Translations under genes and position numbers: made by a program
The notes under the pieces: generated by a model
Databases searched by the model: none
What the model was told of the DNA's origin: nothing
The model's input: the letters and a program-made list of their open reading frames with translations, nothing else
Shown: piece by piece, positions 16,549-55,740 of the stretch
Layout: every line of letters begins with the position of its first letter
How positions within the stretch are numbered: the stretch's first letter is position 1
Assembly (NCBI RefSeq): GCF_009363535.1
Contig: NZ_CP045369.1
Location: forward strand, 942,501-1,006,500
Source of the DNA: Microbulbifer sp. THAF38
Lineage (GTDB): Bacteria; Pseudomonadota; Gammaproteobacteria; Pseudomonadales; Cellvibrionaceae
DNA length: 64,000 nucleotides
Direction of reading: 5' to 3'

Positions 16549-17213
16549 TAAAGCTTGAAAATATAACCAAGTCATTTCGTTCACACAGTGAACGAAATAT
16601 CCTTTTTGAAAATGTCAATGTTGTTTTTCCTGAAGGAAAAAATATAGGAATTCTGGGTCGAAATGGTGCGGGTAAGTCCACACTATTAAGAATAATTGGT
16701 GGTATTGATTACCCAGACTCAGGTCGAGTAATAACAGATCAAAGAATATCCTGGCCTATGGCTCTTTCAGGTGGCTTTCAAGGAAGTATGACTGGAAGAG
16801 AAAATGTAGCATTTGTTTGTGGAATTCATGGTATTTGGGGTAATAAGAAGAATAAGGTGATGGATTTGGTTAGAGAATTTTCTGAAATTGGTAACTACTT
16901 TGATGCTCCAATTAAGAATTATTCTTCAGGTATGCGCTCACGTCTGGCTTTTGGTCTCAGTATCGCTGTAGATTTTGATGTGTATCTGGTAGATGAAGTG
17001 ATGTCTGTAGGTGATGTGCACTTTAGAAGTAAATGTGAAGAGATAATCTCTGAAAAACGAAAGTCATCTAGCTTCATAATAGTGGCTCATGCAATGCCAA
17101 CTTTAAGGAATAATTGTGATGCAGGTATATATATCGAGAAAGGAAAGGTAAGAATCTGCCAATCAGTTGAAAAGGCTATCTCCCTATATCAAAAGGGAGT
17201 GCCTGAGCCGTAA
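16545..17213 (+). CDS. kpsT: capsule polysaccharide ABC transporter ATPase, KpsT/Wzt type
   Basis: A 222-residue ABC ATPase with Walker A GRNGAGKSTLLRII, signature YSSGMRSRLAFGLS, Walker B VYLVDEVMSVGD and the switch histidine in IIVAHA. It is short and lacks the C-terminal carbohydrate-binding domain of Wzt proteins that recognise a chain terminus. It therefore resembles KpsT, which exports without a terminal-modification check on the ATPase. This matters for the ruler hypothesis at 36352, because a WbdD-type terminator usually works with a two-domain Wzt. It overlaps kpsM by four bases. Confidence 0.94.
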   Translation: MIKLENITKSFRSHSERNILFENVNVVFPEGKNIGILGRNGAGKSTLLRIIGGIDYPDSGRVITDQRISWPMALSGGFQGSMTGRENVAFVCGIHGIWGNKKNKVMDLVREFSEIGNYFDAPIKNYSSGMRSRLAFGLSIAVDFDVYLVDEVMSVGDVHFRSKCEEIISEKRKSSSFIIVAHAMPTLRNNCDAGIYIEKGKVRICQSVEKAISLYQKGVPEP

Positions 17214-17255
17214 ATAAATGTTAATAAATTAACAAACGTACTGACTATATGAACT

Positions 17256-18491
17256 ATGAATATAGATGTTAAAAATAATATCGTGTACAGTGAAACCATT
17301 AAACATAGATTTGGTTTTAGTCTGTCAAAACTGAGAGAGTTTTTAAAAAAAAATATATTTTTGTTAAATAAAAAAAATATATTTTCCAGAAGTTTATTTA
17401 TCATAAAAAGCTATACTTTCCTTTTTTTTGTTCTATTACCTTTACTGCTTGTTGGTACGTATTATATTTTTTGGGTTTCTGAACGCTATGTGAGCTATAC
17501 ACAAATAATAGTAAAAGATACGGCCTCTTCTCAGGTTTCTTCTTCAGCAATGGGTTTTTTAATACCAGGTATGGGTATTGATAACCAAGATGCTTTTTTA
17601 GTAGTGAATTATATCCAATCTTTAGATATGGCTCTTTATCTCGATAAAGAATTAGCATTATCAGAGTACTACCAGAGTAACACCCACGATATATTTTCTC
17701 GATTGGGAAAGGATGCAACACAAGAAGAATATTTAAAGTATTACCGAAATCATATATCTGTAAGGTACGATGAAACTACCGGAATAATCGCAATTGAAAT
17801 ACAGGCTTTTGATCCAACATTTGCGCATAAACTCGTCGAAACAATAACTTCAAAATCTGAGAGTTTTGTAAATTCAGTAAGTAATCAACTTGCTGAAAAG
17901 CAGGTGACATTTGTTGAAAATGAAGTTGAACTTGCACAGAGTAAGCTGCGGTTTACTAAGCAAGAAATTCTTGATTTCCAAAACAATAATAATGTAGTTA
18001 GCCCAGAGGAATTAACAAAAGGAATAACTAGTATTATTCAGGGGCTAGAGGCCCGCCTGGCTGAAGAGAGAGCAAAACTTACAGCAGCTAAAAGTTATTT
18101 AAATGCGAATTCATCACAGATAATATCGATGCAAGCAGAAATTGGAGCTTTGGAAAAACAAATTGAGCTTGAGAAAGTTAGATTAGTTGGCATCGGTGAT
18201 GAAAAAGGAGAGCAACGTCTTAATACTTTAGGGGCTCACTTTCAAAATTTAGAATTAGATTTACAGTTTGCAACAGATGCCTACGCAGCCTCTCTAAAGG
18301 CATTAGAAACTGCACGTATGGAAGCTTCTGGAAAGTTAAAGCACTTGATGATAGTTACTCAGCCCTCCCTTGCTGAGGAGCCTGAATATCCACACAAACT
18401 CTATAATATGATTAGTCTAATGATAATACTATTATTCTTGTATGGTATTGGAAAAATGCTGAATGCCAGTATTCGAGATCATCGGATATGA
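17256..18491 (+). CDS. kpsE: capsule export inner-membrane protein, KpsE/BexC/CtrB type (PCP-3)
   Basis: A 411-residue polysaccharide co-polymerase-type protein with one N-terminal membrane segment (about 50-72, FLFFVLLPLLLVGTYYIFWV) and one C-terminal segment (about 383-403, ISLMIILLFLYGIGKML). Between them lies a large periplasmic part with coiled-coil helices (about 210-360). SERYVSYTQIIVKD and GMGIDNQDAFLVVNYIQSLDM are typical of KpsE. It bridges KpsMT and the outer-membrane KpsD. Its stop overlaps an ATG (18488-18491, ATGA) of the next frame, suggesting coupling. Confidence 0.9.
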   Translation: MNIDVKNNIVYSETIKHRFGFSLSKLREFLKKNIFLLNKKNIFSRSLFIIKSYTFLFFVLLPLLLVGTYYIFWVSERYVSYTQIIVKDTASSQVSSSAMGFLIPGMGIDNQDAFLVVNYIQSLDMALYLDKELALSEYYQSNTHDIFSRLGKDATQEEYLKYYRNHISVRYDETTGIIAIEIQAFDPTFAHKLVETITSKSESFVNSVSNQLAEKQVTFVENEVELAQSKLRFTKQEILDFQNNNNVVSPEELTKGITSIIQGLEARLAEERAKLTAAKSYLNANSSQIISMQAEIGALEKQIELEKVRLVGIGDEKGEQRLNTLGAHFQNLELDLQFATDAYAASLKALETARMEASGKLKHLMIVTQPSLAEEPEYPHKLYNMISLMIILLFLYGIGKMLNASIRDHRI

Positions 18492-20206
18492 ATTATGCCT
18501 TGAATTGCAAAAATCTCTGCTCAAGAAATAAATTTCTATTTAAAAATATTTTAGGTGTGATTAGTACCATGAATAGTATAAAAGTAATAAAAAAAGGGGT
18601 GCATCTTTGTCTGTTGGGAATACTGGTTTTTAGTGAGGCATTTGCTTTGGAGACTCAACAGATAGATGAAATTGATTCTACCGTCCAAGCGAATAAAAAA
18701 ATAATACCAGTGTTTGGTCAATCTCTTTTTAGTGGATCTTTTAAAGATCAGCCATTTAGTGGTTTCAATCCAGATTATAGAATTACCATTGGTGATCAGA
18801 TCAATTTACAGCTTTGGGGTGCTTATAGTTTTAGTGCAACCTTGCTTGTAGATCCCAAAGGTAACATTTTTGTTCCAGAAGTTGGACCTGTACATGTTGC
18901 TGGAATCAAGAATGGTGAATTGAATGATTTTGTCCTTCGTCATGTGAAACGCGTCTTTAAGAATAATGTGCAAGCATATGCAAATCTTGAGGCCAGCCAG
19001 CCGGTTAAGGTGTTTGTAACTGGCTATGTGAATAATCCTGGCCTCTATAATGGGTTTAGCTCAGATTCAATTCTTTATTATTTGGATAGTGCTGATGGTA
19101 TAGATCCACAGAGTGGAAGTTTTGTGGATATAAAAGTGATGCGTAATGGCGAGTTAATACAGCGGATTAATTTATATAATTTTATAGTGGAAGGTGTAAT
19201 GCCTGCTCTACAACTACGAAGTGGTGATGTGATAGTGGTCGGCGCTCGTAAAGGTTCCGTTTCTGTTGAGGGAGCCGTTCAGCAGGCAGCACAGATGGAA
19301 TTTACTGGACCATATACTCAGCTTGGTGAGATGCTGCTTGTAAGTAAACCTGATCCACAGGCAAATTTTGCTCGTATAACCCAGGTCGTGGATGGCGTTC
19401 AAGAAGCAATTTATTTATCTTTGAATGAGGCAATGACTACTCAGTTATATCCTGGAGCCCATGTTGAGTTGGTTCGTGATAATGATGTGCATTCTATCTC
19501 AATACAGGTTTCTGGTGAGCTGGATGGTCCCGCAACCTACGTTTTACCATACGGTTCCACATTGGAAGATTTATTAGATAAGTTGCGATTTCGTGAAAAT
19601 GCTGATAGAAACTCTATTCAGCTTTATCGTGAAAGTGTTGCAGAGAAGCAGAGTGCAGCACTTAATAGATCTTTGGATGCGCTACAGATGGAGGTTTTAA
19701 CGCGGCAACCCAATACTGATATGGAAAAAAATGCACAAAAAGATAACGCCTTAATGATACAAAAATTTATTAAACAAGCTCGAGAAGTAAGTCCCAGGGG
19801 ACAGGTTGTAATTGCAAATAATCCTAATGCAACTGAGATGATATTAGAGGATGGGGATCAATTAGTGGTACCCTTGAAGTCGTCAACGGTATCTGTTGTG
19901 GGAGAAGTAATCTTCCCAACCTCTCTCGTGTATAACAAAAAGCTCACCTTGGATGACTATATAGAGCTGGCAGGTGGTTTTGCGAATAATGCTAATCGAG
20001 ATGAGCTAGTCATCTTACATCTTGATGGCACAATAAGTCGTATAGATGATAAAGATTTTGATAATCGACTTGGAGATCGTCTACGACCCGGCGATGAAAT
20101 TATGGTAATGCCTAAGATACGCTCAAGTGAACTACAAGTCACAAAAGATGTTACCGAAATTCTTTACCGCATCGCTGTTGGAGCAGCGGCGGTTCTTTCT
20201 TTCTAG
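18488..20206 (+). CDS. kpsD: capsule export outer-membrane/periplasmic protein, KpsD type (Poly_export/SLBB)
   Basis: A polysaccharide export protein of up to 572 residues. YRITIGDQINLQLWGAYS followed by LLVDPKGNIFVPEVGPVHVAG is the poly-export domain, and several SLBB repeats follow (VFVTGYVNNPGLY, VSVEGAVQQAAQME, IQVSGELDGPATYVLP, VSVVGEVIFPTSLVYN). The ATG at 18488 overlaps the kpsE stop. An in-frame ATG at 18569 follows AGGTG and begins a proper signal peptide (MNSIKVIKKGVHLCLLGILV, then SEAFA-LE), so 18569 is the more likely functional start. No lipobox cysteine is seen at the cleavage site, as in KpsD rather than Wza. It probably forms the channel that takes the chain to the surface. 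Confidence 0.9.
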   Translation: MNYALNCKNLCSRNKFLFKNILGVISTMNSIKVIKKGVHLCLLGILVFSEAFALETQQIDEIDSTVQANKKIIPVFGQSLFSGSFKDQPFSGFNPDYRITIGDQINLQLWGAYSFSATLLVDPKGNIFVPEVGPVHVAGIKNGELNDFVLRHVKRVFKNNVQAYANLEASQPVKVFVTGYVNNPGLYNGFSSDSILYYLDSADGIDPQSGSFVDIKVMRNGELIQRINLYNFIVEGVMPALQLRSGDVIVVGARKGSVSVEGAVQQAAQMEFTGPYTQLGEMLLVSKPDPQANFARITQVVDGVQEAIYLSLNEAMTTQLYPGAHVELVRDNDVHSISIQVSGELDGPATYVLPYGSTLEDLLDKLRFRENADRNSIQLYRESVAEKQSAALNRSLDALQMEVLTRQPNTDMEKNAQKDNALMIQKFIKQAREVSPRGQVVIANNPNATEMILEDGDQLVVPLKSSTVSVVGEVIFPTSLVYNKKLTLDDYIELAGGFANNANRDELVILHLDGTISRIDDKDFDNRLGDRLRPGDEIMVMPKIRSSELQVTKDVTEILYRIAVGAAAVLSF

Positions 20207-21957: not shown

Positions 21958-22425
21958 ATGGATGAGAAGTATCAAGTTCAGTTACTGAAGGAATCACCGC
22001 TCTTTGATGCTGATTGGTATAGATCTCAGCATTCTGACGTAGTAGGTATTAAGCTTACACCTGAACAACATTATCTTCGGTATGGTTGGCGAATGGGAAG
22101 AAGCCCCTCGGCATTATTTTGTGGTGTTAGTTACCTAGAAAAATATCCTGATGTAGTTCAAAGTAACGAAAATCCTCTCGTTCACTATTTACGTTTTGGC
22201 AGACGTGAAGGTAGAGAAATCAAGTCAGTCAAACAAATTAGAAATAATATAAAAAAAGATATAGGTGTGGATTTAGGGAAACTGTTTTCACCTGACAGTG
22301 AAGAAGCACAATTTGAATTAAATATCCCCTTGATTAATCAACTAAAAGAAACTCAACATCTTCTTGAAAAATATGTTCGGCGTTGTCATGAACTAGAATA
22401 TCAAATTATAGATGAGAAGTTATAA
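21958..22425 (+). CDS. small protein with two WYL/YPDV-EGR repeats
   Basis: A 155-residue protein made mostly of two copies of a roughly 35-residue motif. The first is FDADWYRSQHSDV ... HYLRYGWRMGRSP (about 18-51). The second is FCGVSYLEKYPDV ... HYLRFGRREGREI. The C-terminal 50 residues are helical and charged, ending NQLKETQHLLEKYVRRCHEL, a possible short coiled coil. The same motif ends the 1504-residue protein (36352) and occurs three times in the GT2/GT4 fusion (40882). Elsewhere it is known as an appendage on polysaccharide glycosyltransferases, with no function that I know to be proven. Here it stands alone, so a docking or adaptor role is inferred. It is 27 bases upstream of wecB. Confidence 0.75.
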   Translation: MDEKYQVQLLKESPLFDADWYRSQHSDVVGIKLTPEQHYLRYGWRMGRSPSALFCGVSYLEKYPDVVQSNENPLVHYLRFGRREGREIKSVKQIRNNIKKDIGVDLGKLFSPDSEEAQFELNIPLINQLKETQHLLEKYVRRCHELEYQIIDEKL

Positions 22426-34272: not shown

Positions 34273-35169
34273 ATGAGATTCTTACTGGCTATGACTAATA
34301 ATGTATCTGATGATTCCACCAATCAACTTGAGCAGCTAGAATGTAAGATTTTACAGACTTGTAAAGAAAATTCTAATAAGCTCACACGGGACTTAATTAC
34401 TGTTCAGAATCGTGTATATGCCCAACTTGAAAGTCTTAGCTGGCTTCAGAAACGCTTATCTATCAAAGGACAACTTCCCCCACTGCGGGGTTGGGCGGCA
34501 TCACCAGATGTTCTACTAAGGTTGCATACCCATATCATGAGTTCTCGCCCCACTATTGTAGTTGAACTCGGTAGCGGTGCTTCTACATTAGTGATTGCTG
34601 ATGCATTACGCCAAAACGGTAAAGGTAAATTGATATCTATTGAACATAGTGAATATTATGGGTCCCTGACATTATCATCTCTTCAAGTTGAGTATTTACA
34701 GTCTTGGGTAGATCTAAGAATTGGAGATTTAGAACTCTGGGAAGGTGAGCATCTGAATTCTGATGATTCTGATAAGCCACCACGCTGGTATCCACTATCG
34801 ATTCTCGAAGGGATTGATAATGTTGATCTGCTTTGGGTAGATGGCCCCCCTGGAGCTACTTGTTTATATAGTCGCTATCCTGCCTTACCAGCATTATTTA
34901 ACCGTCTTTCACGGAAAGCTGAAGTTTGGATGGATGATACTATCCGTAAGGAAGAAAAGAATATTTGTGAGCGCTGGGCGCAAGACTATGATTTTGAGCT
35001 GGAGTATCATCCGCTGGAAAAAGGACTTGGAAGGATGATAAGGCCTAATAACAAAAATACATCCATTGATTCATCGTCAAAAGAGGAATTCACTGATCAA
35101 GATGACGTGTTTACACGTGTCTTGGGCCTGAGCTTTCCGTTACAAGAGAACGATCATGATATAGGCTAG
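34273..35169 (+). CDS. class I SAM-dependent methyltransferase-like protein
   Basis: A 298-residue protein. After an N-terminal helical part (1-80) it has VVELGSGASTLVIADAL (97-113), a clear SAM-binding motif I. LISIEHSEYYG with the acidic residue after strand 2, VDLRIGDLE, and VDLLWVDGPPGATC (strand 4) complete the fold. RKAEVWMDDTIRKEEKN is the following strand and turn. The pattern matches Methyltransf_24-like proteins often found in O-antigen and capsule loci. Unlike the related head domain of the next large protein (36352), its SAM motif is intact, so it may be the working methyltransferase of the pair. An ATG at 34291 is an alternative start. The acceptor is unknown. Confidence 0.75.
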   Translation: MRFLLAMTNNVSDDSTNQLEQLECKILQTCKENSNKLTRDLITVQNRVYAQLESLSWLQKRLSIKGQLPPLRGWAASPDVLLRLHTHIMSSRPTIVVELGSGASTLVIADALRQNGKGKLISIEHSEYYGSLTLSSLQVEYLQSWVDLRIGDLELWEGEHLNSDDSDKPPRWYPLSILEGIDNVDLLWVDGPPGATCLYSRYPALPALFNRLSRKAEVWMDDTIRKEEKNICERWAQDYDFELEYHPLEKGLGRMIRPNNKNTSIDSSSKEEFTDQDDVFTRVLGLSFPLQENDHDIG

Positions 35170-36351: not shown

Positions 36352-39300
36352 ATGCAATCAGACTTGGCAATAAAACCTGCAATTAATTCACTTGCTCAGA
36401 GCTCTATGTTTTGGAAGCCTGACTATCTTCGCTCTTCACTTTGGTTAGAGCATGTTCCTTTTTTGTTTTGGCTTATAGAGGCACATCAACCTAGGACTGC
36501 AATAACTTTGGGAATAGAGTCTGGGGTTGCGCACTTTGCATTATGCCAAGCTATTCAGCGTCTTCGGCTGGACACCCGTTGCTATGCTACTTGTATAGGG
36601 AAAAGTGAGGATTCCTCTACTTCTGATGACCAGATAAGAATGTATCATGAGAAGAATTTTGATAGTTTTTCCTACCTACTTGATAGTTCGTCTATGAAGA
36701 CTGGCGGGCAGTTTGAGGATTCAAGTGTTGATTTGCTGTTATTGAACGCCTTTCATGAGGATGATTTTGAAGGCTTAATGGCTCGATGGACCCCCAAAAT
36801 ATCGAGCTATGGCTTAATACTTATACCTGGTATTTCCCGGCGTTCTCAGGAAAATGTAAATTATAAAGCTTTTGAATTTCTGGCAAAAGATAACCCCTCC
36901 TTTGCTTTTCATCACGGAGATGGATTAGGGGCTATCTCTTTGGGTAGAGATTTGAATCCATTACTTTCAAATCTATTTGAGCAGGGAGAGTCAAATTCAG
37001 CATTACAGGTTGTCAAGGATGTTTTTGCTCGTTTAGGCCGCACATGTAAAGACGCTCTGAAGGCGAATGAATATCTAGAAAAAGCAGAAGTGCTTAAGGT
37101 AAATCTTGCTGATCAGAAAAGTAAATTAGAGCGATTAGGAGCAGACTATGAAAATACTCGCTTACAATTGGAATCTAAGCGAAGGGAACTAGTTAATTTT
37201 AATAATCGCATGGATCAAGCATTGGAGCGGCATGCACAAGAACGTGGCCAACTAGCCGAACGAGTTAGTATCTTGCAGGAGTTTCGTGATGAACTCAAGT
37301 CTGAAGTTTCCCAGCTTCGTTCAAGGCTTGATGAACAATACCGGCAAATGGATAACCGAAACCAACAGCTTTTGCAGCTACAAGAAGCAGGTTTGGAGTT
37401 AAGACAGGAATTGATGAATTATCAGATGCGCTCAAAATCAAGTGCAGATGAGTTGGCCAGAACACAAGAAGAGCACCAGAACCTAAAGGAACTTTATAAT
37501 GATAAATTGAAGGATAGTACTGAGCTTTCTAGTCGATGCGTAGAGCTGGAGAAGCAGTTAACTACACATAGTGAAATCGTAAAAAAACTGCAGGATGATA
37601 AAGATAGAATTATTGAGGAGAATCGAGCACATGCTGAGAATGTAAAGAATCTTGGAAAAAAAATAAAATTATTAGAATCTGAAAATGAACAAAAGCGAGA
37701 ATCAGAAGATAAAAATAGACAAGAACTTTTAACGCTTAAGAAGAAGTTGAAAGAAGCACAAGACACGATTATCAAAAGGGATGAGGCACTAGATACTCAG
37801 AGAGCTCTTAACGATGGATTAAAGTCTGCGTTGGCTGATAAGGAGCAACATAGGAAACAAAAAGATGCTCTTGCTAAACAACTCGAACAAAAAATAAATG
37901 AACTTGAAATTAACTCAAAAAGCTATATTGAAGAAAAATCTGGTCTTGAAAAGCAAGTAGAATTTTTGCAGAACACGCAGCAGCAGTTAGAGCAAGCACA
38001 GGCACGAATTAAAAAATTGGAAAATAATATATCAGAGGTCACGTGCAGATCTGAAATTCTTACTTTAAAAAACGGACAGATGCAAGAACAAGTTCAATCG
38101 CTTCGAGAAAAGGAGAAAAATTGGAGACTAGAAAAAGATAACATAAAGGTCCTTGAGGAATATCTTTCGAATTCACAAGTTGAACTTGAGAAAGCTACAC
38201 TTGAGAAAAATAAGTTAGAGAAAAAAGTAAAACAGTTTGATGAGAAAGAAAAAAAATGGATCTTAGAGAAAGATCATATTAATAACCTGGAAAAAAATTT
38301 ATCACAACTAAGAAAAAACAATGAGAAGATTGCGCTGGAGAAAAACCAGCTTGAGCAGCAGATAAAGATTCTACAGGAAGAGCAGAAGACATCAAGACAT
38401 GTACAAGAACATGTGAAAAATCTTGAAATTGAAGTTGAAAAATCCGAACGTAAGTTGGAGAGCTCTAATTTAGTTAAGAATCAACTTGAAGAGCAAGTAC
38501 AGGTTTTGCTTGAGGATCAGAAAAATTTACAGAATGCATATGAAAAAATTAGTAAGCAGGAAGGAGATATTCTAAAGCTAGCTCGTAAGTCGAAGAGTAC
38601 GGAATTAGAAAAAAATAAGTTAGAAGAGGAAATACAAGTTCTTCTTAAGAAACAACATCAGTTCCAATTGAGGGAAGAACACATAGGACAGCTTGAGCAA
38701 AACCTTGAAAAACTTGAAAATGATTTACACGTTGCCAACCTAGAAAAACAAAACAAAGAAGAGAAATTACAAGCACTTCTTGAGGAGCAGCAGAACTGGA
38801 CGAAGGCAGAAGTTCATATCAAAAAACTAGAGCAATCTCTAGTCGACTTACAAGACAAATCCGAGAAAGATGCAGATGATAAAAGAAAGCTTAAAGATAG
38901 AATAGAAACCCTCAGGGAAAAATATCAGCAATTGCGTGAAGTGGAAGTGAATTATAATAAATTGGAAAAGGATTTTTCTAATCTTGAACGAAAATATGAA
39001 AGTATCGATATAAAAAATAATCAGCTTGAGGGCCAGGTTCAAGTTTTTCAGAAAGAGCAAAGTGAATGGAAAAAAATAAAAAAATATACAAATGATTTAG
39101 AATCAAATTTTAATAATCTTAAAAAAAGTTATGAGACTATAAGTTCAGAAAAAAAATCTCTCGAAGAGCAATTGCGCACTTTGTTGGCGAAGCAGGAGCA
39201 ATGGCATCAAGTTGAACTTAATGCTAATAAATTAAAACAAGATTTTGTTGGGTTGCAACGTAATCATGAGACAATAATCAAAGAAAAGAATGAAATCGAA

Positions 39301-40866
39301 CGGCGTTTTCAGGCATTAGAGGCGGATAAAAAAAATTGGAAACAGGATAAAATCCATGCAAAAAAACTAGAATCTGATCTTGTTAGGCTCAATCAGAACT
39401 TGGAGAAAACTGCAACGATTGAAAGAGAGCTTGATGAGTGGGTGCAGGCATTCGAGGATGAAGAGAAGAAGTGGGAATGCTCACAAAAATATGCAAATCA
39501 ATTAGAGCAAAAGCTTATTGATCTTGAACAAAAATATGAAAGTTCAGCTTCTGAGAAAATGAAGCTTTATGAGAGGGTAGAAATTCTTGAGGATAAAGAG
39601 AGACAGTTGAAGCAGGTACAAAGCCATAATAACGATCTGAAGCATAACCTTGCAGAGAACATGAGTAAGTCTGATCGTTTAGAGAGAGAAAACCATGACC
39701 TAGAAAAATATATTGAAAAACTAAAAGTCGATTGGCATCAATTACAAGAAACTAATAACCGGCTTAGTCATGAAATAGAAAACCTCAAGCTTAAACTTGA
39801 TCAGGCAGTTAATAATAAAGTTATACTTGAAGATCGATTGCATACTCAGGAAGAGGCGTTAATAATTAATAAAAAAGTTATTGAAAAAAATAATAAAGAG
39901 ATGGCCTCTCTTAAAAAATTGCTAAATAACGCAGAGGTACAAACGGCTGAATTAAAGTCACAAAATGCAGAAAATCTACGCATCTTAACTGATAAAATTC
40001 AACTGTCGGAGACAACTATTTCTGCTTTAGAGGATCAATTACAAACTCAAGAAAGTAAGCTTGAACAACTTAGAGAATCTAAAGAGAATCAAGAGAAAAC
40101 TGTTAATATCTTGCAGGCAGACCTCGCAAAAAAAGACTCGCAGCTAAAAACAAGTCAGGAGCGCTCCCAGCAGCTTGAGAAATCAATAAATTCTTATGTT
40201 GATGAACTGCGGAAGGTGGAGAAGACAAAACAGGGTTTAGATAAAAAACAAGAGGATCTGAATTCTCACTGTCAAAAACTTAAAAAATCTTTACAGCTTA
40301 TCGAGACGGAGCGCGATGAACTTCTGCAAGCGAAACAGAGGTTACAAATCCAAGTTCAATCTTTGAAATCTGAACTTACTGATACTAAACATTCAGTTGA
40401 TGAGCGCTTTAAAGAATTGACTTTAATGACTCGTTTATTAGAGGAGAAAGAAGAACAACTGACATCTCTACGCATGGAAGTAGCAGGTGATTCGGTGGGA
40501 GCAGCAGAGAAAAACCATCAGCCTGTTAAAAAAAAGGTACTTCAGGTCAGCTTACCATTCGGTAAGCATACTAAAAAGATTCGTAAAGAGAAAAAGGAAC
40601 TGGATCAGATCCATCGTTCAGGTTTATTTGATGCGGAATGGTATCTGAACTCTTACCCCGATGTGGCTAAGAATGAGGATTCATCTCATGATCCCGCTTT
40701 ACATTACTTGAAACTCGGTGCTTTTGAAGGACGTAATCCTAGCCCAGACTTCGACAGTCAATGGTATCTAGATACTAATCCGGATGTAAAAGATAGTGGT
40801 TTCAATCCACTGGTGCATTATATCTCCATGGGTAAGGAGGAAGGCCGTCAACCTCTTCCATGCTGA
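36352..40866 (+). CDS. giant coiled-coil protein: degenerate methyltransferase head, 13 x 45-residue repeats, YPDV-repeat tail (candidate molecular ruler)
   Basis: A 1504-residue protein in three parts. Residues 1-about 220 resemble a Methyltransf_24-type domain (LGIESGVAHFALCQAI, then RLDTRCYATCIG and VDLLLLNAFHEDDFEG), but the SAM-loop acid and the IDG-H motif are altered. Residues about 245-1400 are an almost unbroken coiled coil, rich in Glu, Lys, Gln and Leu. Within it, residues 527-1111 (37930-39684) are 13 end-to-end repeats of exactly 45 residues. Two FDxxWYL-PDV-EGR repeats start at 1426 and 1467. No signal peptide or membrane segment is seen. E. coli WbdD also joins a methyltransferase to a coiled-coil ruler that sets chain length, so a ruler or scaffold is proposed. 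No kinase domain was found. Confidence 0.8.
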   Translation: MQSDLAIKPAINSLAQSSMFWKPDYLRSSLWLEHVPFLFWLIEAHQPRTAITLGIESGVAHFALCQAIQRLRLDTRCYATCIGKSEDSSTSDDQIRMYHEKNFDSFSYLLDSSSMKTGGQFEDSSVDLLLLNAFHEDDFEGLMARWTPKISSYGLILIPGISRRSQENVNYKAFEFLAKDNPSFAFHHGDGLGAISLGRDLNPLLSNLFEQGESNSALQVVKDVFARLGRTCKDALKANEYLEKAEVLKVNLADQKSKLERLGADYENTRLQLESKRRELVNFNNRMDQALERHAQERGQLAERVSILQEFRDELKSEVSQLRSRLDEQYRQMDNRNQQLLQLQEAGLELRQELMNYQMRSKSSADELARTQEEHQNLKELYNDKLKDSTELSSRCVELEKQLTTHSEIVKKLQDDKDRIIEENRAHAENVKNLGKKIKLLESENEQKRESEDKNRQELLTLKKKLKEAQDTIIKRDEALDTQRALNDGLKSALADKEQHRKQKDALAKQLEQKINELEINSKSYIEEKSGLEKQVEFLQNTQQQLEQAQARIKKLENNISEVTCRSEILTLKNGQMQEQVQSLREKEKNWRLEKDNIKVLEEYLSNSQVELEKATLEKNKLEKKVKQFDEKEKKWILEKDHINNLEKNLSQLRKNNEKIALEKNQLEQQIKILQEEQKTSRHVQEHVKNLEIEVEKSERKLESSNLVKNQLEEQVQVLLEDQKNLQNAYEKISKQEGDILKLARKSKSTELEKNKLEEEIQVLLKKQHQFQLREEHIGQLEQNLEKLENDLHVANLEKQNKEEKLQALLEEQQNWTKAEVHIKKLEQSLVDLQDKSEKDADDKRKLKDRIETLREKYQQLREVEVNYNKLEKDFSNLERKYESIDIKNNQLEGQVQVFQKEQSEWKKIKKYTNDLESNFNNLKKSYETISSEKKSLEEQLRTLLAKQEQWHQVELNANKLKQDFVGLQRNHETIIKEKNEIERRFQALEADKKNWKQDKIHAKKLESDLVRLNQNLEKTATIERELDEWVQAFEDEEKKWECSQKYANQLEQKLIDLEQKYESSASEKMKLYERVEILEDKERQLKQVQSHNNDLKHNLAENMSKSDRLERENHDLEKYIEKLKVDWHQLQETNNRLSHEIENLKLKLDQAVNNKVILEDRLHTQEEALIINKKVIEKNNKEMASLKKLLNNAEVQTAELKSQNAENLRILTDKIQLSETTISALEDQLQTQESKLEQLRESKENQEKTVNILQADLAKKDSQLKTSQERSQQLEKSINSYVDELRKVEKTKQGLDKKQEDLNSHCQKLKKSLQLIETERDELLQAKQRLQIQVQSLKSELTDTKHSVDERFKELTLMTRLLEEKEEQLTSLRMEVAGDSVGAAEKNHQPVKKKVLQVSLPFGKHTKKIRKEKKELDQIHRSGLFDAEWYLNSYPDVAKNEDSSHDPALHYLKLGAFEGRNPSPDFDSQWYLDTNPDVKDSGFNPLVHYISMGKEEGRQPLPC
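37930..39684 (+). repeat. 13 tandem 135-base (45-codon) coding repeats
   Basis: Thirteen diverged repeat units of exactly 45 codons run without a single insertion or deletion. Repeat position 6 is mostly Leu, position 10 is V/I/L/F in all 13, position 20 is Trp in seven (otherwise mostly Leu or Phe), and position 30 is Leu in twelve, usually followed by an acidic residue. Half-units fade out on both sides (about 482-526 and after 1111). Forty-five is not a multiple of seven, so each unit shifts the heptad phase by three residues. The DNA copies have diverged strongly, which indicates old duplication with length kept by selection. Confidence 0.85.
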
Positions 40867-40881
40867 GATAATGTAAAAATT

Positions 40882-43857
40882 GTGCTGAATATAAAACGTA
40901 TATGTCGCAGGCTTGTGGAGATGATCCTGAGAGTTACTCCTTTAGGCTGCGACTATCCATCACAGGTCTCTGACCACTTCGATTCTCACTGGTATTTACA
41001 GACTTATCCAGACGTTGCCGATGCTGGAGTCAATCCGTGGGCACACTATATCAAACATGGTCGTTTTGAAGGTAGACGTCCATTTCTCAATCGCGCTGTC
41101 GTTTGGGAATACCATCTTTGGCGTGGTGGAGATAAGTTACTCCTACCTCGGCTCAAACAACTAGCGGATTCTTCAAATGAAATTTGCCAGGAGCGATTTT
41201 ACGCAGCATGGGCTATTGCGCGTTGGTATGCTGCAATTGATGATTGGTCGAAAGTTTTGGTTTCTCTATCATCGTTTCGATGTGCAGATAGTCCTGATCC
41301 CTCACATGCGGGTCCTTTCTTACTTTTATTTGAAGCAGCACTACACTGTAAGCAACAGACGATAGTTCAGAAATCACTTTCAATATTAGCCCAGCGGTTT
41401 TCAGGGCAGGTTGATATTCTATTGGCAGAGGTCAATCTACTCTCACAGAGTAAAGCTAACCATACCTCTGATAGAAAAATGAATTGTTTGCTTTTAAAAG
41501 CTATCAATCGAGTCTTTATACCTAATGGGCTGTGTTATTTATCTGGCGAGGATAATAAAACACTAAGTTTAGATTCTCTCCATCCTGCAGAGCATTTGCC
41601 TGTTGTGGGAGATGAAAGATCGCCAAGAGTTTCAGTAATTCTTCCCACTTACAATTCTGAGAAAACTCTGAAAACGTCACTTCGTTCTTTATGCGATCAG
41701 TCTTGGCGGAACCTAGAAATTTTGGTTGTGGACGACGCTAGTAAAGACACCAGCTGGCAATTTCTTGAAAATTTTGTGCGAAGTATTCACTTGCGACCAG
41801 GTTTGGAAATACGGATATTGCGCCATGAAGAAAATCAAGGAGCCTATGCGGCCCGGAATACTGCCCTGAAGATAGCCAGTGGTGATCTAATTACCACGCA
41901 TGATAGTGATGATTGGTCTCATCCTCAAAAGATTGAATACCAAGTTAAAGCTTTATTATCTGATCCATTTAAAGTAGGTTGCACTTCACATTGGGTGCGT
42001 ACCACCAATGATCTACATTTCTCACACTGGAGATTAGAGGATAGCTGGGTATATCGTAATGTCTCTTCATTGATGTTTCGCCGCTCTGTATTTGAAGTAT
42101 TAGGTTATTGGGATAGGGTTACTGTGAATGGGGACACTGAGTACTACTATCGTATTCTTCATGCTTTTGGGGAAAATGCTTTAACTGAAGTCTTACCGGG
42201 TGTGCCGCTTAGTTTTGGTCGTATTAGTAAAGGTTCATTAAGTAGATGTAGTGAAACAAGTCTTTTTACACGATTTAATGGTATTCGAAAATATTATGAA
42301 GATGCTGCTAAGCGATGGCACAGAGCGGCAAAATCGGTAGAAGATCTTTATTTACCAGAAAATCCGAAATTTCGACGGTTTATCGCGCCAGCACCAATTT
42401 GTCCTGATGAAAAGCCTGTTGAGAATCCTAATCCTTCCGACCTGGTTCAGCAGTCACGCTATTTTGATGTAGCTTGGTATTTAGAGCAATACCCAGACTT
42501 GCAAGATACATCAGTAGATCTGTTTGAGCACTATTGGTTAACTGGTTTTTTAGAGGGGAGGGATCCAGGCCCAGAGTTCAGTACCTCTGGATATGGATAC
42601 CATTATCCAGAGGCTAGATCAGATAATCTGCCTAGTCTTTATCATTACCTTACTGTGGGCAAAGAGAAAGGATTAAAACCTACTCCAGAAATAACTGGAA
42701 CGCAGATACCTCGGTCGGGCTCATTAAATTTGTTAGTTTGTGCGCACCAGGTTGACAGCAATTTATTTGGCGCTGAACGCAGCCTGTTAGATGTATTAAC
42801 CGTCTTGAATGAGTTAGAAGTCAATTTGATAGTAACATTACCAAATGCTTTGAACTCTAAATATGTAGAAAACATAAAGTCTCTAGCAAGTGTTGTAAAA
42901 ATTTTACCATATGGTTGGTGGAATTCTGGCCGTCCTCCCTGTCAGCGAACCTTAGAACAGTTTAAGAAGTTAGTAAAAAAATACGATATTCAAGCAGTGT
43001 ATGCTAATACGCTAGTGCTTGATGAGCCACTACTTGCGGCTCGAGCTTTAGAGATACCTACTATAATTCATGTTCGTGAACTTCCTTTTCACGATGATGC
43101 TCTCTGTAAGGCATTGGGAGCTAGTGCTCAATTAATTACCGAGCGTGTTAGGGTTTTGGCCGATATTACGTTAGTTAACTCTCGTATCGTGGAAAAGGAA
43201 ATAGCCGCACCAAATTCTGTTGTAGTACCAAATATAGTAGATGTAACTCGATATAAATCGAATTCTCAGACATTGGAGACTAAAAATACTCCTATTTGTA
43301 TAGCGTTGATTAGTAATAACTTGCCAAAAAAAGGTTTGGCAGATTTTGTTAATTTAGCAAAAATACTTGAGCAACGTGCTATACCAGTTATTTGTAAACT
43401 GATTGGACCAGAGAATGAGCATATAAGGTATGTACGATCTCAACAGCAAACTGGCGAAATTGCAAAGTGTATTGAATTTATAGGATATATTGCTAACCCA
43501 GATGAAGCTTTAGCCAGCGTCGATATAGTTGTTAACCTATCGCATTTTCAAGAATCATTCGGGCGCACGATACTGGAAGCTATGGCTGCAGCACGGCCAG
43601 TGGTAGTTTACGACTGGGGGGCACTCTCTGAGCTAGTTGTAGACGGTGAGACTGGTTATCTTGTTCCATTTGGTGAAATTGAAATGGTCGCAAGACGAGT
43701 GATACAGCTTATTTATGATAAAGAATTGCGAGTTCAAATGGGGCAGGCCGGTCGACAGCATGCTGCTGAAAACTATAGTTTCAAAAAAATGCTCGGGCGC
43801 TTCAGAAATATTTTACAGAAAATTGAGCACCTCTCATCGTTTTCGGAAAAAGTATAA
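40882..43857 (+). CDS. GT2-GT4 fusion glycosyltransferase with three YPDV-EGR repeats
   Basis: A 991-residue bifunctional enzyme. One repeat (FDSHWYLQTYPDV ... EGRRP, about 34-70) comes first, then a helical region. A GT2 domain starts near 247 (PRVSVILPTYNSEKTLKTSL, with VVDDASKD, THDSDDW as the DxD site, and NGDTEYYYRI). Two more repeats (FDVAWYLEQYPDL ... EGRDP and a weaker copy) lie near 527-600. A GT4 domain runs from about 613 (NLLVCAHQV, FGAERSLLDVL, ISNNLPKKGLADFV, ESFGRTILEAMAAARPVVV) to the end. GTG 40882 is 15 bases after the ruler gene's stop; ATG 40921 is an alternative. The shared repeats and tight spacing suggest a physical complex with the 36352 product, possibly as polymerase. 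This role is inference. Confidence 0.85.
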   Translation: MLNIKRICRRLVEMILRVTPLGCDYPSQVSDHFDSHWYLQTYPDVADAGVNPWAHYIKHGRFEGRRPFLNRAVVWEYHLWRGGDKLLLPRLKQLADSSNEICQERFYAAWAIARWYAAIDDWSKVLVSLSSFRCADSPDPSHAGPFLLLFEAALHCKQQTIVQKSLSILAQRFSGQVDILLAEVNLLSQSKANHTSDRKMNCLLLKAINRVFIPNGLCYLSGEDNKTLSLDSLHPAEHLPVVGDERSPRVSVILPTYNSEKTLKTSLRSLCDQSWRNLEILVVDDASKDTSWQFLENFVRSIHLRPGLEIRILRHEENQGAYAARNTALKIASGDLITTHDSDDWSHPQKIEYQVKALLSDPFKVGCTSHWVRTTNDLHFSHWRLEDSWVYRNVSSLMFRRSVFEVLGYWDRVTVNGDTEYYYRILHAFGENALTEVLPGVPLSFGRISKGSLSRCSETSLFTRFNGIRKYYEDAAKRWHRAAKSVEDLYLPENPKFRRFIAPAPICPDEKPVENPNPSDLVQQSRYFDVAWYLEQYPDLQDTSVDLFEHYWLTGFLEGRDPGPEFSTSGYGYHYPEARSDNLPSLYHYLTVGKEKGLKPTPEITGTQIPRSGSLNLLVCAHQVDSNLFGAERSLLDVLTVLNELEVNLIVTLPNALNSKYVENIKSLASVVKILPYGWWNSGRPPCQRTLEQFKKLVKKYDIQAVYANTLVLDEPLLAARALEIPTIIHVRELPFHDDALCKALGASAQLITERVRVLADITLVNSRIVEKEIAAPNSVVVPNIVDVTRYKSNSQTLETKNTPICIALISNNLPKKGLADFVNLAKILEQRAIPVICKLIGPENEHIRYVRSQQQTGEIAKCIEFIGYIANPDEALASVDIVVNLSHFQESFGRTILEAMAAARPVVVYDWGALSELVVDGETGYLVPFGEIEMVARRVIQLIYDKELRVQMGQAGRQHAAENYSFKKMLGRFRNILQKIEHLSSFSEKV

Positions 43858-49577: not shown

Positions 49578-50498
49578 ATGGAAGTAATCAACCGCTGGAT
49601 CATTGTAGAGGAGGGGCCAAACCCCTCGACAGATTACTTCGTAATTCCTTATCTGAAAAATTTGGGTGTGAGTGTCAAGCGCCTGACTTTTACCGATCTA
49701 CCCTCGGTTGATGAACTCGATGGAGCTCAGGTTATTTTTGTACGCTATGTTTCTCACGCCTGGCAATCTCTGATACAACAGAATTTGAAAAAGGTATCTG
49801 GCGTTTCAGTATTTCTAGATGATGATTTATTTGATTGGTCAGCATTCTCCGGGATGCCACTCCGCTATCAGATTAAAATACTACGCTATAGCTGGTCTAA
49901 GCAGCGCTGGTTAAAAGCCATTGGGGCAAAATTATTGGTCTCAACTCCATTTCTACAGAGAAAATATCGTCACTTGTCTCCTCAACTATTGTCAGCTGAG
50001 CCTCTGGATTTGGGTGCAAAGCGTCCACTTTCTATTTTCTATCATGGATCGGCATCTCACAGTGAGGATATTAACTGGCTTTATCCCATCATCAGACAGG
50101 TACTAGAAGAGAATCAAAACCTGGATTTTGAAATTATTGGGGATAAGCGAGTAAACCGTCTATTTCGGGGTGTGCCGAGAGTGCAAGTAATACACCCTAT
50201 GAAGTGGACAACTTACTTGTCCATGATACAGCGATCAGGCCGCTCTATAGGATTAGCTCCATTGTTGGATAGACCTTTTAATAGGGCAAGATCCCACACC
50301 AAATTTTTTGACATTACGCAGGCTGGTGCAGTAGGGATTTATGCGGAAGGGGATATTTACGGAAGAATAGTCCGACACCAGGAAAATGGAATCCTGTTGC
50401 CAATGCAGCCATTGGCCTGGGTAGAAAGTATTTTACAGTTGGCAGCTGATGATGTACTTAGAGAAAAGTTATTGCGCGGAGCACAAGAATGTCTGTAG
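49578..50498 (+). CDS. glycosyltransferase-like protein (GT4/GT1 fold)
   Basis: A 306-residue protein of the GT-B type. VFLDDDLFDW (about 85) follows a Rossmann-like first half. The second half has LSIFYHGSASHSEDINWL, DFEIIGDK, VIHPMKWTTYLSMIQ, and RARSHTKFFDITQAGAVGIYA, where a donor loop of GT1/GT4 proteins would be. HQENGILLPMQPLAWVESI is the family's end pattern. It is short for GT4 and lacks the double-glutamate motif, so the subfamily is uncertain. It overlaps kpsC by ten bases and is likely translated with it, so it may act close to the Kdo linker end of the chain. Confidence 0.7.
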   Translation: MEVINRWIIVEEGPNPSTDYFVIPYLKNLGVSVKRLTFTDLPSVDELDGAQVIFVRYVSHAWQSLIQQNLKKVSGVSVFLDDDLFDWSAFSGMPLRYQIKILRYSWSKQRWLKAIGAKLLVSTPFLQRKYRHLSPQLLSAEPLDLGAKRPLSIFYHGSASHSEDINWLYPIIRQVLEENQNLDFEIIGDKRVNRLFRGVPRVQVIHPMKWTTYLSMIQRSGRSIGLAPLLDRPFNRARSHTKFFDITQAGAVGIYAEGDIYGRIVRHQENGILLPMQPLAWVESILQLAADDVLREKLLRGAQECL

Positions 50499-52540
50499 TT
50501 GGGCACTGTTCCCTGGGGCTCCGCAGAATGCGTATTTTGGAGCCGTTGCTTGGTACTAAGTGCCAATATGTACTTTCAAGACCCAATGAAGCTATTAATC
50601 ATATGGTGGGCTGGGGGCTTAAGAATTCGGCGATTAAGGCACAGAGAATTGCCTCACGGGCTGGGCTTTCTTATTTCTGTATAGAGGATGGTTTTTTACG
50701 CTCCTTGGGTCTAGGGGTGGAGGGGGCTCAAGCCCATAGTTTGGTAGTGGATTATACTGGCATTTACTATGACGCCTCCCGTCCCAGTGACCTTGAAAAC
50801 TTGATTAAAACCAGTGGCTTTACTGCCGAAGAACTAAGTCGAGCAGAAAAAGGGCTTGGGCTCCTGCGAACCCATCGGTTGTGTAAATATAACAAGTCAT
50901 TTGATACACCCTTGGAAATAGCAGACAATCGCTCGGCAGTTCTGGTGGTAGATCAGACTTATGGTGATACATCGATAAGGGCAGGATTAGCCTCTGAAAG
51001 TCATTTTCATCAAATGTTGCGAAGTGCTATTTCAGAAAATCCTGGGGCTGAAATAATTGTCAAAATTCATCCGGATGTTATTTCTGGTAAAAAACGCGGT
51101 TATTTACAGGCGCTTGCAGAGCAAGAAGGCTGTAAAGTTATCGGACAGGATATATCCCCCTGGTCGATGTTCGATCGTGTTGATAAAGTCTATGTAGTGA
51201 CCAGTCAACTGGGCTTTGATGCGCTGATTGCTGGTAAAGAGGTACATTGTTTCGGCGTTCCCTTCTATTCTGGCTGGGGGCTTACAAAAGATCGCCAGTC
51301 TGTTGCTAGGCGTAATGTAAAACGAACACTGACAGAAATTTTCTGTGCGGCCTATCTTCGCTATTGCCGCTATATAAATCCTTACACGAACCGTAAATGC
51401 GAATTTGAGGATGCACTGGCTCTGATAGTCGAACAAAAAAGACAGTGGGAGCGTTTTCAAGGTACTTGGGTAGGTGTCGGGTTTTCGCCTTGGAAGCGTA
51501 GGTTTATTCCTAATTTTTTAGGGAGTAAGTCTAGAGTTGCTTTTTCGAGGTCTCTCAATAAGAGGCCTAAGGCCAGTCCTGGCGCTAATATTTTAGTATG
51601 GGCCAGCCGGGTTAACGACTCTCTGGTTGAGCAATGTCAACAAGCTCAATTGAATTTGTGGCGTATTGAAGATGGTTTTTTACGCTCGGTAGGCTTGGGC
51701 GCTGATTTAGTTACTCCAAGTTCTCTGGTGTTGGATTCCAGTGGAATCTACTTTGATGCCCATAATCCGAGTGATCTGGAAACTCTCTTAAATAGTACTA
51801 AATACTCACCAGCTATTTTGGCCCAGGCCAGAAAATTAAGGCAACAGTTGGTAAAGAATAGGGTGACCAAATATAATCTTGGTCGAGCAAAATTGTCCTG
51901 TGAGTTAAATCTGCCCAAGGATAAAAAGATAATTTTAATCCCTGGTCAAGTGGAGAGCGATGCCTCTATTGCCTGTGGCTCACCGGTATTCAAAAATAAT
52001 TTATCCTTGCTGCAACAGGTGAGGGCGAAGCATCCTGATGCTCATATCATCTATAAACCCCATCCAGATGTTGTTTGTGGTGCACGAAACGGGGAAGTGC
52101 CAGCAGTTGCTGGATCTCTGTATGACACTTTGATTGAGAGGGGGGAAATCTCCCTGTTGCTGGATAAGGTTGATGAAGTGCATACCATGAGTTCACTATG
52201 TGGTTTTGAGGCTTTGTTGAGAGAAATCAAGGTAGTAACTTATGGGCTGCCATTTTATGCAGGATGGGGGCTTACAGAAGATACACTCCTTATTGATAGA
52301 GAGCTCAAGGCATTCGATCTTCAATCTTTCAAGCTTCGGCGGCAGAGAGAGCTTAAACTGGATCAGCTAGTAGCTGGCGTACTGCTTCTTTACCCCGTAT
52401 ATGTGGACCCCAGAAGCGGTGAATTTATCAATGCGGAAACTACCATCGAGATTTTACAGCAATCCCGCAAGGTTGGTCGAAAAGAGAGCGTTTTTTTAAA
52501 GGTATTTAGTTGGTATCGAAGTCAGTTCTTAAAATATTAA
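50489..52540 (+). CDS. kpsC: capsule linker beta-Kdo transferase
   Basis: KpsC extends the poly-beta-Kdo linker that joins group 2-type capsules to a phospholipid. The 683-residue protein has the expected two related halves. FCIEDGFLRSLGLGVEGA with IYYDASRPSDLENLI lies in the first half. RIEDGFLRSVGLGADLVTPS with IYFDAHNPSDLETLL starts near residue 391 in the second. Each half also keeps IVKIHPDV or IYKPHPDV, followed by a T-S-x-LGF or MSSLCGFEALL block and LPFYAGWGLT-like ends. Length is typical. Together with kpsS it needs CMP-Kdo, which the gene at 7695 can supply. Confidence 0.94.
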   Translation: MSVVGHCSLGLRRMRILEPLLGTKCQYVLSRPNEAINHMVGWGLKNSAIKAQRIASRAGLSYFCIEDGFLRSLGLGVEGAQAHSLVVDYTGIYYDASRPSDLENLIKTSGFTAEELSRAEKGLGLLRTHRLCKYNKSFDTPLEIADNRSAVLVVDQTYGDTSIRAGLASESHFHQMLRSAISENPGAEIIVKIHPDVISGKKRGYLQALAEQEGCKVIGQDISPWSMFDRVDKVYVVTSQLGFDALIAGKEVHCFGVPFYSGWGLTKDRQSVARRNVKRTLTEIFCAAYLRYCRYINPYTNRKCEFEDALALIVEQKRQWERFQGTWVGVGFSPWKRRFIPNFLGSKSRVAFSRSLNKRPKASPGANILVWASRVNDSLVEQCQQAQLNLWRIEDGFLRSVGLGADLVTPSSLVLDSSGIYFDAHNPSDLETLLNSTKYSPAILAQARKLRQQLVKNRVTKYNLGRAKLSCELNLPKDKKIILIPGQVESDASIACGSPVFKNNLSLLQQVRAKHPDAHIIYKPHPDVVCGARNGEVPAVAGSLYDTLIERGEISLLLDKVDEVHTMSSLCGFEALLREIKVVTYGLPFYAGWGLTEDTLLIDRELKAFDLQSFKLRRQRELKLDQLVAGVLLLYPVYVDPRSGEFINAETTIEILQQSRKVGRKESVFLKVFSWYRSQFLKY

Positions 52541-54486: not shown

Positions 54487-55740
54487 ATGTCTGTGGCAGT
54501 ATTTCTACAGGGACCGCATGGCCCATTTTTTGCCAGGCTGGCAAAACGCCTCTCTCAGCTTGGTGTTGTCACCCATAAGATCAACTTTAATGGGGGGGAT
54601 CGCTTCTTTGGCTGGGGAAACGCCCAGGTGGATTTCACTGGTCGAGAAGTAGACTGGCCGGCCTTTTTCCGTCGTTATCTTTCTGAGCATAAGGTTGATA
54701 CAGTTTTTGCCTATGGTGACTGCCGTAGACTCCATGAGAGCGCAAAGAAAGTATGCCAATCCATGGGCGTCGCCTTTATCGTTTTTGAGGAAGGCTATCT
54801 GCGCCCCGACTTTGTCACTATGGAGTGGGGCGGGGTTAATGCTTTTTCCTCTACCAACTGGTCCAGGCAGGCAATACATCAATATCTACCGAGAGGTCGT
54901 ACCCCTGCGTCGCCTGTTGGTCATACTTTTTGGCGACGAGCGTACTTTGCGTCTGCATATTATGTGGCGATGCGACTTGCTCAAGCAGAGTTTTCCAGTT
55001 ATCGCCATCACCGGAATCGCAGTTGGCTAAAGGAAGGTGTTTGCTGGCTTAGAAGCTTTTATCGTAAAGGGCTTTATAAGATTACAGAGCGAGGCCTTAT
55101 CCGACAGCTGACGGAAGAGTTCAGTGGTCGCTTTTACCTGTTTCCTTTGCAGACCTGTGATGATTTTCAGCTGCGTAAACATTCCGACTTGCTCTCGATT
55201 GAGAATGCAATAGATGTTGTATGTAAATCTTTTGCCCGAAACGCTCCTGAAGATACAGTCATTGTTATCAAGCATCACCCCATGGATCGAGGCTTTTGCC
55301 ATTATCAAAAGCTGATTAGTGTATTAGAGGCCCGCTATCAGATTAGTGGGCGGGTCATTTATTGTCATGACCTGCACCTTCCCACTTTGTTGGATCATGC
55401 AAAGGGAGTCGTAACAATCAATAGCACTGTGGGGATATCCGCGTTGCTTCACAAGGTACCTACCAAGGTACTGGGGCGCTCTTTATATGACTTGCCGGGT
55501 TTGACACATCAGGGCAGCCTCTCCAATTTTTGGCAGCAGCCAGAACCGGTGGATACCGCCTTTTTCCGGCGCTTTCATACTTATCTATATGAGCGTACAC
55601 AAGTGGATGGTAGTTTCTCCCGGGGTATCACATCTACCGTGGATGGCGTCTGTGACCGTTTTCAGGAAATGGGTGTAAAGGGTTCTATTTTGCCTGTATC
55701 AAAGCCTGCTGGAACCGATGCCAAGACTGACGCCAAGTGA
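54487..55740 (+). CDS. kpsS: capsule linker Kdo transferase, KpsS family
   Basis: KpsS adds the first beta-Kdo to phosphatidylglycerol or lysophosphatidylglycerol, which KpsC then extends. The 417-residue protein starts VAVFLQGPHGPFFARLAKRL, then HKINFNGGDRFFGW. YGDCRRLHESAKKVC and VFEEGYLRPDFVTME with GGVNAFS are diagnostic. VIVIKHHPMDRG and TINSTVGISALLHKVPTKVLG are the C-terminal donor site. Length is normal. This is the last capsule gene: the stop codon sits in a strong hairpin, and the base composition of the following genes is clearly higher in GC. Confidence 0.93.
   Translation: MSVAVFLQGPHGPFFARLAKRLSQLGVVTHKINFNGGDRFFGWGNAQVDFTGREVDWPAFFRRYLSEHKVDTVFAYGDCRRLHESAKKVCQSMGVAFIVFEEGYLRPDFVTMEWGGVNAFSSTNWSRQAIHQYLPRGRTPASPVGHTFWRRAYFASAYYVAMRLAQAEFSSYRHHRNRSWLKEGVCWLRSFYRKGLYKITERGLIRQLTEEFSGRFYLFPLQTCDDFQLRKHSDLLSIENAIDVVCKSFARNAPEDTVIVIKHHPMDRGFCHYQKLISVLEARYQISGRVIYCHDLHLPTLLDHAKGVVTINSTVGISALLHKVPTKVLGRSLYDLPGLTHQGSLSNFWQQPEPVDTAFFRRFHTYLYERTQVDGSFSRGITSTVDGVCDRFQEMGVKGSILPVSKPAGTDAKTDAK

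Follow-up and report, generated by a model that had tools for sequence, protein, structure and literature searches.

The question raised by this locus is what sets the chain length of an ATP-binding cassette (ABC)-dependent capsule, which the portions of the literature available to us leave unexplained. In the window, i.e., the whole 64,000-nucleotide stretch of Microbulbifer sp. THAF38 (NZ_CP045369.1) analysed here, an ABC-transporter capsule locus contains an open reading frame (36352-40866) for a protein of 1504 residues with a methyltransferase-fold head, a coiled coil of ~1,190 residues and a two-repeat tail. An earlier note on this DNA had described a giant protein with a WbdD-like arrangement of head, coil and tail within an ABC capsule locus, and our analyses support this description. 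We propose, with a probability of roughly one half, that the protein is a spacer docked on the polymerase, a WbdD-like design minus the capping chemistry, which would control chain length. Coordinates are collected in Table 1.

The periodicity of the coil and its 45-residue units are computed results, as are the fold of the head and the loss of its catalytic positions. Residues 203 to 1391 are free of proline, and the best hydrophobic period lay between 3.46 and 3.56 in all 20 segments of 112 residues starting at 225-1289, a result that no more than 2% of 200 shuffles reached. A stricter test (p<=0.01) was passed by 22 of 34 segments of the coil protein and, as a control, by 7 of 171 segments from 11 other proteins of the window. 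Periodicity, shuffles and control proteins together confirmed the coil, previously put at ~1150 residues, at ~1,190. In the structural model, the helix at residues 216-261 continues out of the head. A 45-residue period was detectable in the coil at lags up to 360, and thirteen units could be stacked without an inserted or lost residue. Columns 1, 4, 8, 11, 15, 18, 22, 25, 32, 36 and 39, and also 27 and 38, are hydrophobic in at least half of the units; the unit can therefore be read as six heptads plus three residues. In coiled-coil terms three such extra residues are a stammer, and one stammer every 45 residues amounts to a spacing of ~6.7 nm. The three-residue stammer of each unit often lies near a tryptophan, and these local irregularities are evenly spaced along the rod. 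The best NCBIfam matches of the coil were SMC families, far under the cut-off (70.8 versus 567 bits), as one might expect of an SMC-like or cytoskeletal coiled-coil protein with no capsule link. Given that the head has a methyltransferase fold, and that position, tail repeat and relatives point to polysaccharide loci, we consider such an identity extremely improbable.

The predicted structure of the head is a class I methyltransferase fold, that of the O-methyltransferases. We aligned 116 distinct heads (identical cores counted once, close ones left unmerged) and scored nine conserved positions (signature E, D, H-x-D-G-x-H-x-Y, H-D), which we take to have S-adenosylmethionine (SAM)- and metal-binding roles. 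All nine are kept in 31 of 38 head relatives without coil and tail. None is kept in 64 of the 78 coil-and-tail proteins, one to four are kept in nine, and eight are kept in five (P0076-P0080, 543-648 residues, one named Chelatococcus), with P0018, whose proline-free stretch is 138, counted among the "other" proteins by the coil definition. The window head retains one of the nine in its sequence. It lacks the conserved SAM and metal residues of Methyltransf_24 and cation-dependent O-methyltransferases, and the catalytic and metal positions of MeT1, MycF and COMT are lost. The methyltransferase-like head of the earlier note is upheld as a fold, but it looks like a pseudo-methyltransferase. An active WbdD-like capping enzyme, whose head still methylates the chain end, would agree with the O-methyltransferase fold and with the relatives of E. 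coli, Sinorhizobium and Chelatococcus type, which retain catalytic positions (8 of the 8 counted in tree-set scoring for the E. coli and Sinorhizobium representatives). With a single position left in the window head and none in most coil-tail proteins, we hold this to be very unlikely.

In a tree of 69 representatives from 128, taken at 80% identity (L045 and L054, with short head matches, omitted), 30 dead rows fell into one supported group (27 with tail and 3 without a recognised tail), while P0010 and two tail-less rows were dead outside it. The dead state requires at least three changes on this tree, an inference limited by long branches and midpoint rooting. Ratios of nonsynonymous to synonymous substitution rates (dN/dS) in G009-G036, the only pair with unsaturated head dS, were 0.08 (head), 0.14 (first coil part), 0.05 (tail) and 0.15 (neighbouring glycosyltransferase). 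By this measure the dead head is not decaying; it looks like a pseudoenzyme, a dead methyltransferase that is still conserved. The previous suggestion that the protein may hold the polymerase rather than cap the chain fits this apparent loss of the active site.

Among the other heads, live relatives include methyltransferase-glycosyltransferase fusions. Intact-signature heads without a terminal tail (L074, L075, L076, L078, L080 and L081) adjoin KpsT/Wzt-like ATPases of 440-520 residues, long enough for a C-terminal domain, and are possible capping methyltransferases. A Jannaschia plasmid (L106:7932-10874) encodes, near ABC export genes, a dead head with a long coil and without the tail repeat; near-identical units are seen by eye in this coil.

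The tail comprises two repeats of ~34 residues (WYL...PDV...HY...G...EGR), to our knowledge distinct from the Pfam domain named WYL. It is the best conserved part of the protein, with 77-80% identity to three orthologues, whereas the head reaches 60-67% and the unit region 28-35%, and it is predicted with high confidence to be a small all-helical domain (predicted local distance difference test, pLDDT, 92.2). A Pfam search of the tail alone and an NCBIfam search of the 155-residue repeat protein each returned zero matches, a PDB sequence search of the tail returned none better than E 0.26, and comparison of its model with 13 chains gave no structural match. One protein search found 560 carriers of the repeat, among proteins of ~830-2630 residues. 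Among the 120 of them listed, 103 have Pfam domains of glycosyltransferase type by our own count, and 12 also have a head-type methyltransferase. The three carriers in the window are the coil protein, the 155-residue protein (21958-22425) and the next-door GT2-GT4 glycosyltransferase (40882), in which the earlier note had correctly recognised the repeats of the tail. The 155-residue protein consists of two tail-type repeats and a helix and adjoins a WecB-like gene; a copy of ~160-173 residues (open frame) occurs in all five genus genomes with the coil protein. Near a 760-residue coil protein, L016:14063-14992 encodes a 309-residue protein with a short coil and tail repeats and without the methyltransferase head.

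Repeat sharing, gene adjacency and length variation among near-identical relatives were likewise computed. Where the head protein bears the tail, the gene after it carries the repeat as well in 16 of 19 loci; the figure is 0 of 12 for loci with tail-less heads (one without a same-strand neighbour; the L076 fusion, with one internal repeat, was assigned to this side by hand), against a background of 14 in 451 other open reading frames of the same loci. By lineage, the repeat-bearing next gene was found in E. coli (10/10), Microbulbifer (4/6), Sinorhizobium (1/1), G703 (1/1) and G066 (0/1). The partners are GT2-GT4 proteins in Microbulbifer (Pfam), GT2 in E. coli (annotation) and, by our own reading, GT2 in G703 and GT4 in Sinorhizobium; that of E. 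coli GN25 is GH99-like (annotation) and still carries the repeat. Of 48 genus genomes 5 have the coil protein, and the same 5 have the 40882 orthologue (at least 53% identity); remoter 40882 relatives in G014, G046 and G023 occur without the coil head. In G003 (C1:946000-1006000; L082, L015, L083 and L014), two neighbouring capsule loci each have their own export genes and coil protein (612 and 1612 residues), and a repeat-bearing glycosyltransferase adjoins the coil gene only in the first.

The separate 34273 methyltransferase occurs in 4 of the 48 genus genomes, those whose coil has at least 883 residues, and lies close upstream of the coil gene. This distribution is what would be seen if the dead head were an activator that regulates the live 34273 methyltransferase, which would then cap the chain. 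Only four cases exist, co-occurrence at one locus can be plain linkage, and coil proteins also occur in G039 and at the G003b locus, where the stretch read has no 34273. We therefore think such an activator unlikely.

Measured from head to tail, the coils of the genus have 292, 440, 883, 1022, 1192 and 1276 residues. Compared with the window, the coil differs by +7, -90, -45 and -42 in G009, by +7, -90, -180 and -42 plus a 4-residue gap near the tail in G036, and by +45 and +42 plus a 3-residue gap in G003a, with gap placement depending on aligner settings; save one of 3 and one of 4, the indels against these three orthologues are thus of 7, 42, 45, 90 or 180 residues. Indels of 7, 11, 49, 14 and 35 recurred often in 240 pairs with 85% identity or more. 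Judged from these alignments, length differences appear often to be coil-compatible (45n in the window's orthologues; 7, 11, 49, 63, 84 and 105 elsewhere). Some proteins are nearly identical outside a coil indel, namely E. coli FAM21845 and LP26 (99.8%, 96 residues), P0076 and P0080 (99.8%, 105 residues), and P0006 and P0015 (98.2%, 63 residues). P0025 and P0038, which come from marine Halomonas-type isolates, share 94.7% identity with coil steps of 49 and 11 residues between them.

The same variation, spanning 292 to 1276 residues and present even among near-identical proteins, would suit a scaffold without length control, in which the coil protein would assemble the glycosyltransferases with further enzymes of the locus into a single complex and its coil length would drift with no effect on the chain. 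The presence of the tail repeat in three window proteins is in line with this, and so is the published expectation that length variation in E. coli is uncritical (PMC13171606). On the other hand, many length steps preserve the coil register and unit lengths differ by lineage (45 here; 88, 25, 56 and 75 in others), suggesting that length, or at any rate rod continuity, is under selection. We regard the scaffold as a possible, though doubtful, explanation.

If the protein is instead a polymerase-docked spacer, its C-terminal repeat domain would dock on the capsule polymerase machinery, with the 40882 product as the first candidate partner, and tail and polymerase would bind through their common repeats. 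The very long coil would stand off from the docked polymerase. At its end the N-terminal head, as a methyltransferase that lost its chemistry, may still bind the chain end or recruit another enzyme, perhaps the 34273 methyltransferase in the four long-coil loci. The head-to-tail distance would then set chain release, i.e., capsule chain length. A spacer function on the capsule polymerase appears most likely, in which the protein may measure chains or may only organise enzymes. Several points nevertheless weigh against it. Kinship inflates the adjacency count, as 10 of the 19 loci are from E. coli; in G003a (1612 residues) and G066 the gene after the coil gene lacks the repeat, and in G039 the carriers of the repeat sit two and three genes downstream of the coil gene. 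Linkage at one locus can explain the co-occurrence of the coil protein and 40882 as well as interaction does. The tail repeat is widespread in glycosyltransferases and may have another role, e.g., sugar binding. In the 240 pairs, coil steps of 4, 5 and 17 residues occur frequently as well, and only 328 of 731 indel occurrences are multiples of 7, in pairs that are related and non-independent. Furthermore, a rod of 177 nm is large for a bacterial cytoplasm.

An export ATPase with a C-terminal carbohydrate-binding domain belongs to the WbdD system. The window ATPase has only 222 residues, which bears out the previous statement that KpsT lacks this domain, and the locus further differs from that of WbdD in being apparently of KpsC/KpsS type. 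The window protein does have the extended coiled coil of a WbdD-type terminator; unlike WbdD, it has a dead head, no kinase seen and undescribed tail repeats, and its coil of ~1,190 residues compares with a WbdD C-terminal domain (460-708) that includes the coil. When profiles A1 and A4 were matched to PDB sequences at E 0.01, no WbdD entry was among the hits; the likeness to WbdD suggested earlier is supported in layout. In the accessible parts of the source, coiled-coil terminators have the terminator at the distal coil end, with the polymerase held at or recruited to the opposite one (PMC11231755). As far as the sources could be consulted, WbdD (E. coli O9a), Klebsiella WbbB, ORF7-O4 and ORF6-O7 resemble the window protein in joining an N-terminal terminator-type domain to a coil, with the polymerase at or near the other coil end and in an ABC-dependent polysaccharide locus (PMC11231755, PMC3482155). 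The absent kinase, previously given as a difference from WbdD, is not telling, because the O8 homologue is described in the available text as methyltransferase-only (PMC3482155). Geobacillus WsaE, as described in the part of its report at hand, combines a methyltransferase and two rhamnosyltransferase domains; its N-terminal methyltransferase is proposed as a chain cap in an ABC-dependent locus, and that part mentions no long coil, a comparison by description (PMC2943079). The live head relatives likewise include fusions of a methyltransferase with a glycosyltransferase.

Nor is the protein unique, since one protein search listed 82 proteins, query included, and a version exists in E. coli. 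In group 3 capsule loci of E. coli (TBA_3, TBA_7 and TBA_8), a putative methyltransferase gene shares the head family, coil, tail, repeat-bearing next gene and upstream export genes; unlike the window protein, its product has catalytic positions intact by sequence (8 of 8 in the representative) and a coil of 483-584 residues (nine measured). Coil-length variation in E. coli has already been published, without an assigned function (PMC13171606); new here are the clade of dead heads, the link through the repeat, the giant members of marine origin and the proposed function. On plasmid p13QT31-2, found by a plasmid search, a polysaccharide export gene, an ABC permease, an ATPase and a polysaccharide transporter gene are followed by a 912-residue head-coil-tail protein with a live signature, and then by an 805-residue GT2 protein with a repeat near its start. 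By megablast, 17 of 5426 complete E. coli genomes matched (15 plasmid and 3 chromosomal places), and FAM21845 has the entire locus with capsule genes at the far end. DNA identity between p13QT31-2 and S1-ZIM is 99.9% up to the coil and 88.7% beyond the coil gap; the coil may therefore also be a site of recombination between loci. The capsule locus of E. coli GN25 lies on a plasmid near mcr-10.1 (annotation).

A capsule spacer, if true, would bring to capsules the molecular-ruler principle of O antigens, and a ruler may then work without capping chemistry. More tentatively, a capping methyltransferase-coil protein might have become a gauge that sets the length of ABC-exported capsules by geometry alone and docks on any repeat-bearing polymerase, with capsule thickness evolving by gain and loss of coil units. 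Natural length series would be ready in the proteins 98.2-99.8% identical outside 63, 96 and 105-residue indels, with the genus homologues of 292 to 1276 coil residues as a further one. The uncatalogued repeat domain (560 proteins) may serve as a code by which multi-enzyme glycan synthases are assembled.

Table 1. Positions in the window of the head-coil-tail protein, its parts and the associated genes.
Feature	Position	Strand	Basis
Head-coil-tail protein, 1504 residues	36352..40866	+	open reading frame
Head, pseudo-O-methyltransferase fold, residues 1-235	36352..37056	+	
Coiled coil, residues 234-1425	37051..40626	+	
Thirteen 45-residue coil units without indels, residues 501-1085	37852..39606	+	
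Tail, two WYL...PDV...HY...EGR repeats, residues 1426-1499	40627..40848	+	
GT2-GT4 glycosyltransferase, candidate polymerase	40882..43857	+	Pfam
Tail-type repeat in 40882 glycosyltransferase, residues 33-65	40978..41076	+	
Tail-type repeat in 40882 glycosyltransferase, residues 528-560	42463..42561	+	
Separate Methyltransf_24 protein, candidate partner of head	34273..35169	+	
155-residue protein with two tail-type repeats	21958..22425	+	
Export genes KpsM, 222-residue ATPase (KpsT), KpsE, KpsD-like	15757..20206	+	KpsM, KpsE: best NCBIfam matches, below cut-off; KpsT, KpsD: own reading
KpsC-like	50489..52540	+	own reading
KpsS-like	54487..55740	+	best NCBIfam match, below curated cut-off

Elsewhere in the window, four sulfotransferase-like proteins are encoded at 3413-4420, 10846-11787, 32194-32964 and 43986-44927 (32194 and 43986 by Pfam, the other two by our own reading), and a heparinase-like protein, with a match below cut-off, at 30454-32166. 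Together these sulfotransferase-like and heparinase-like proteins suggest a sulfated capsule.
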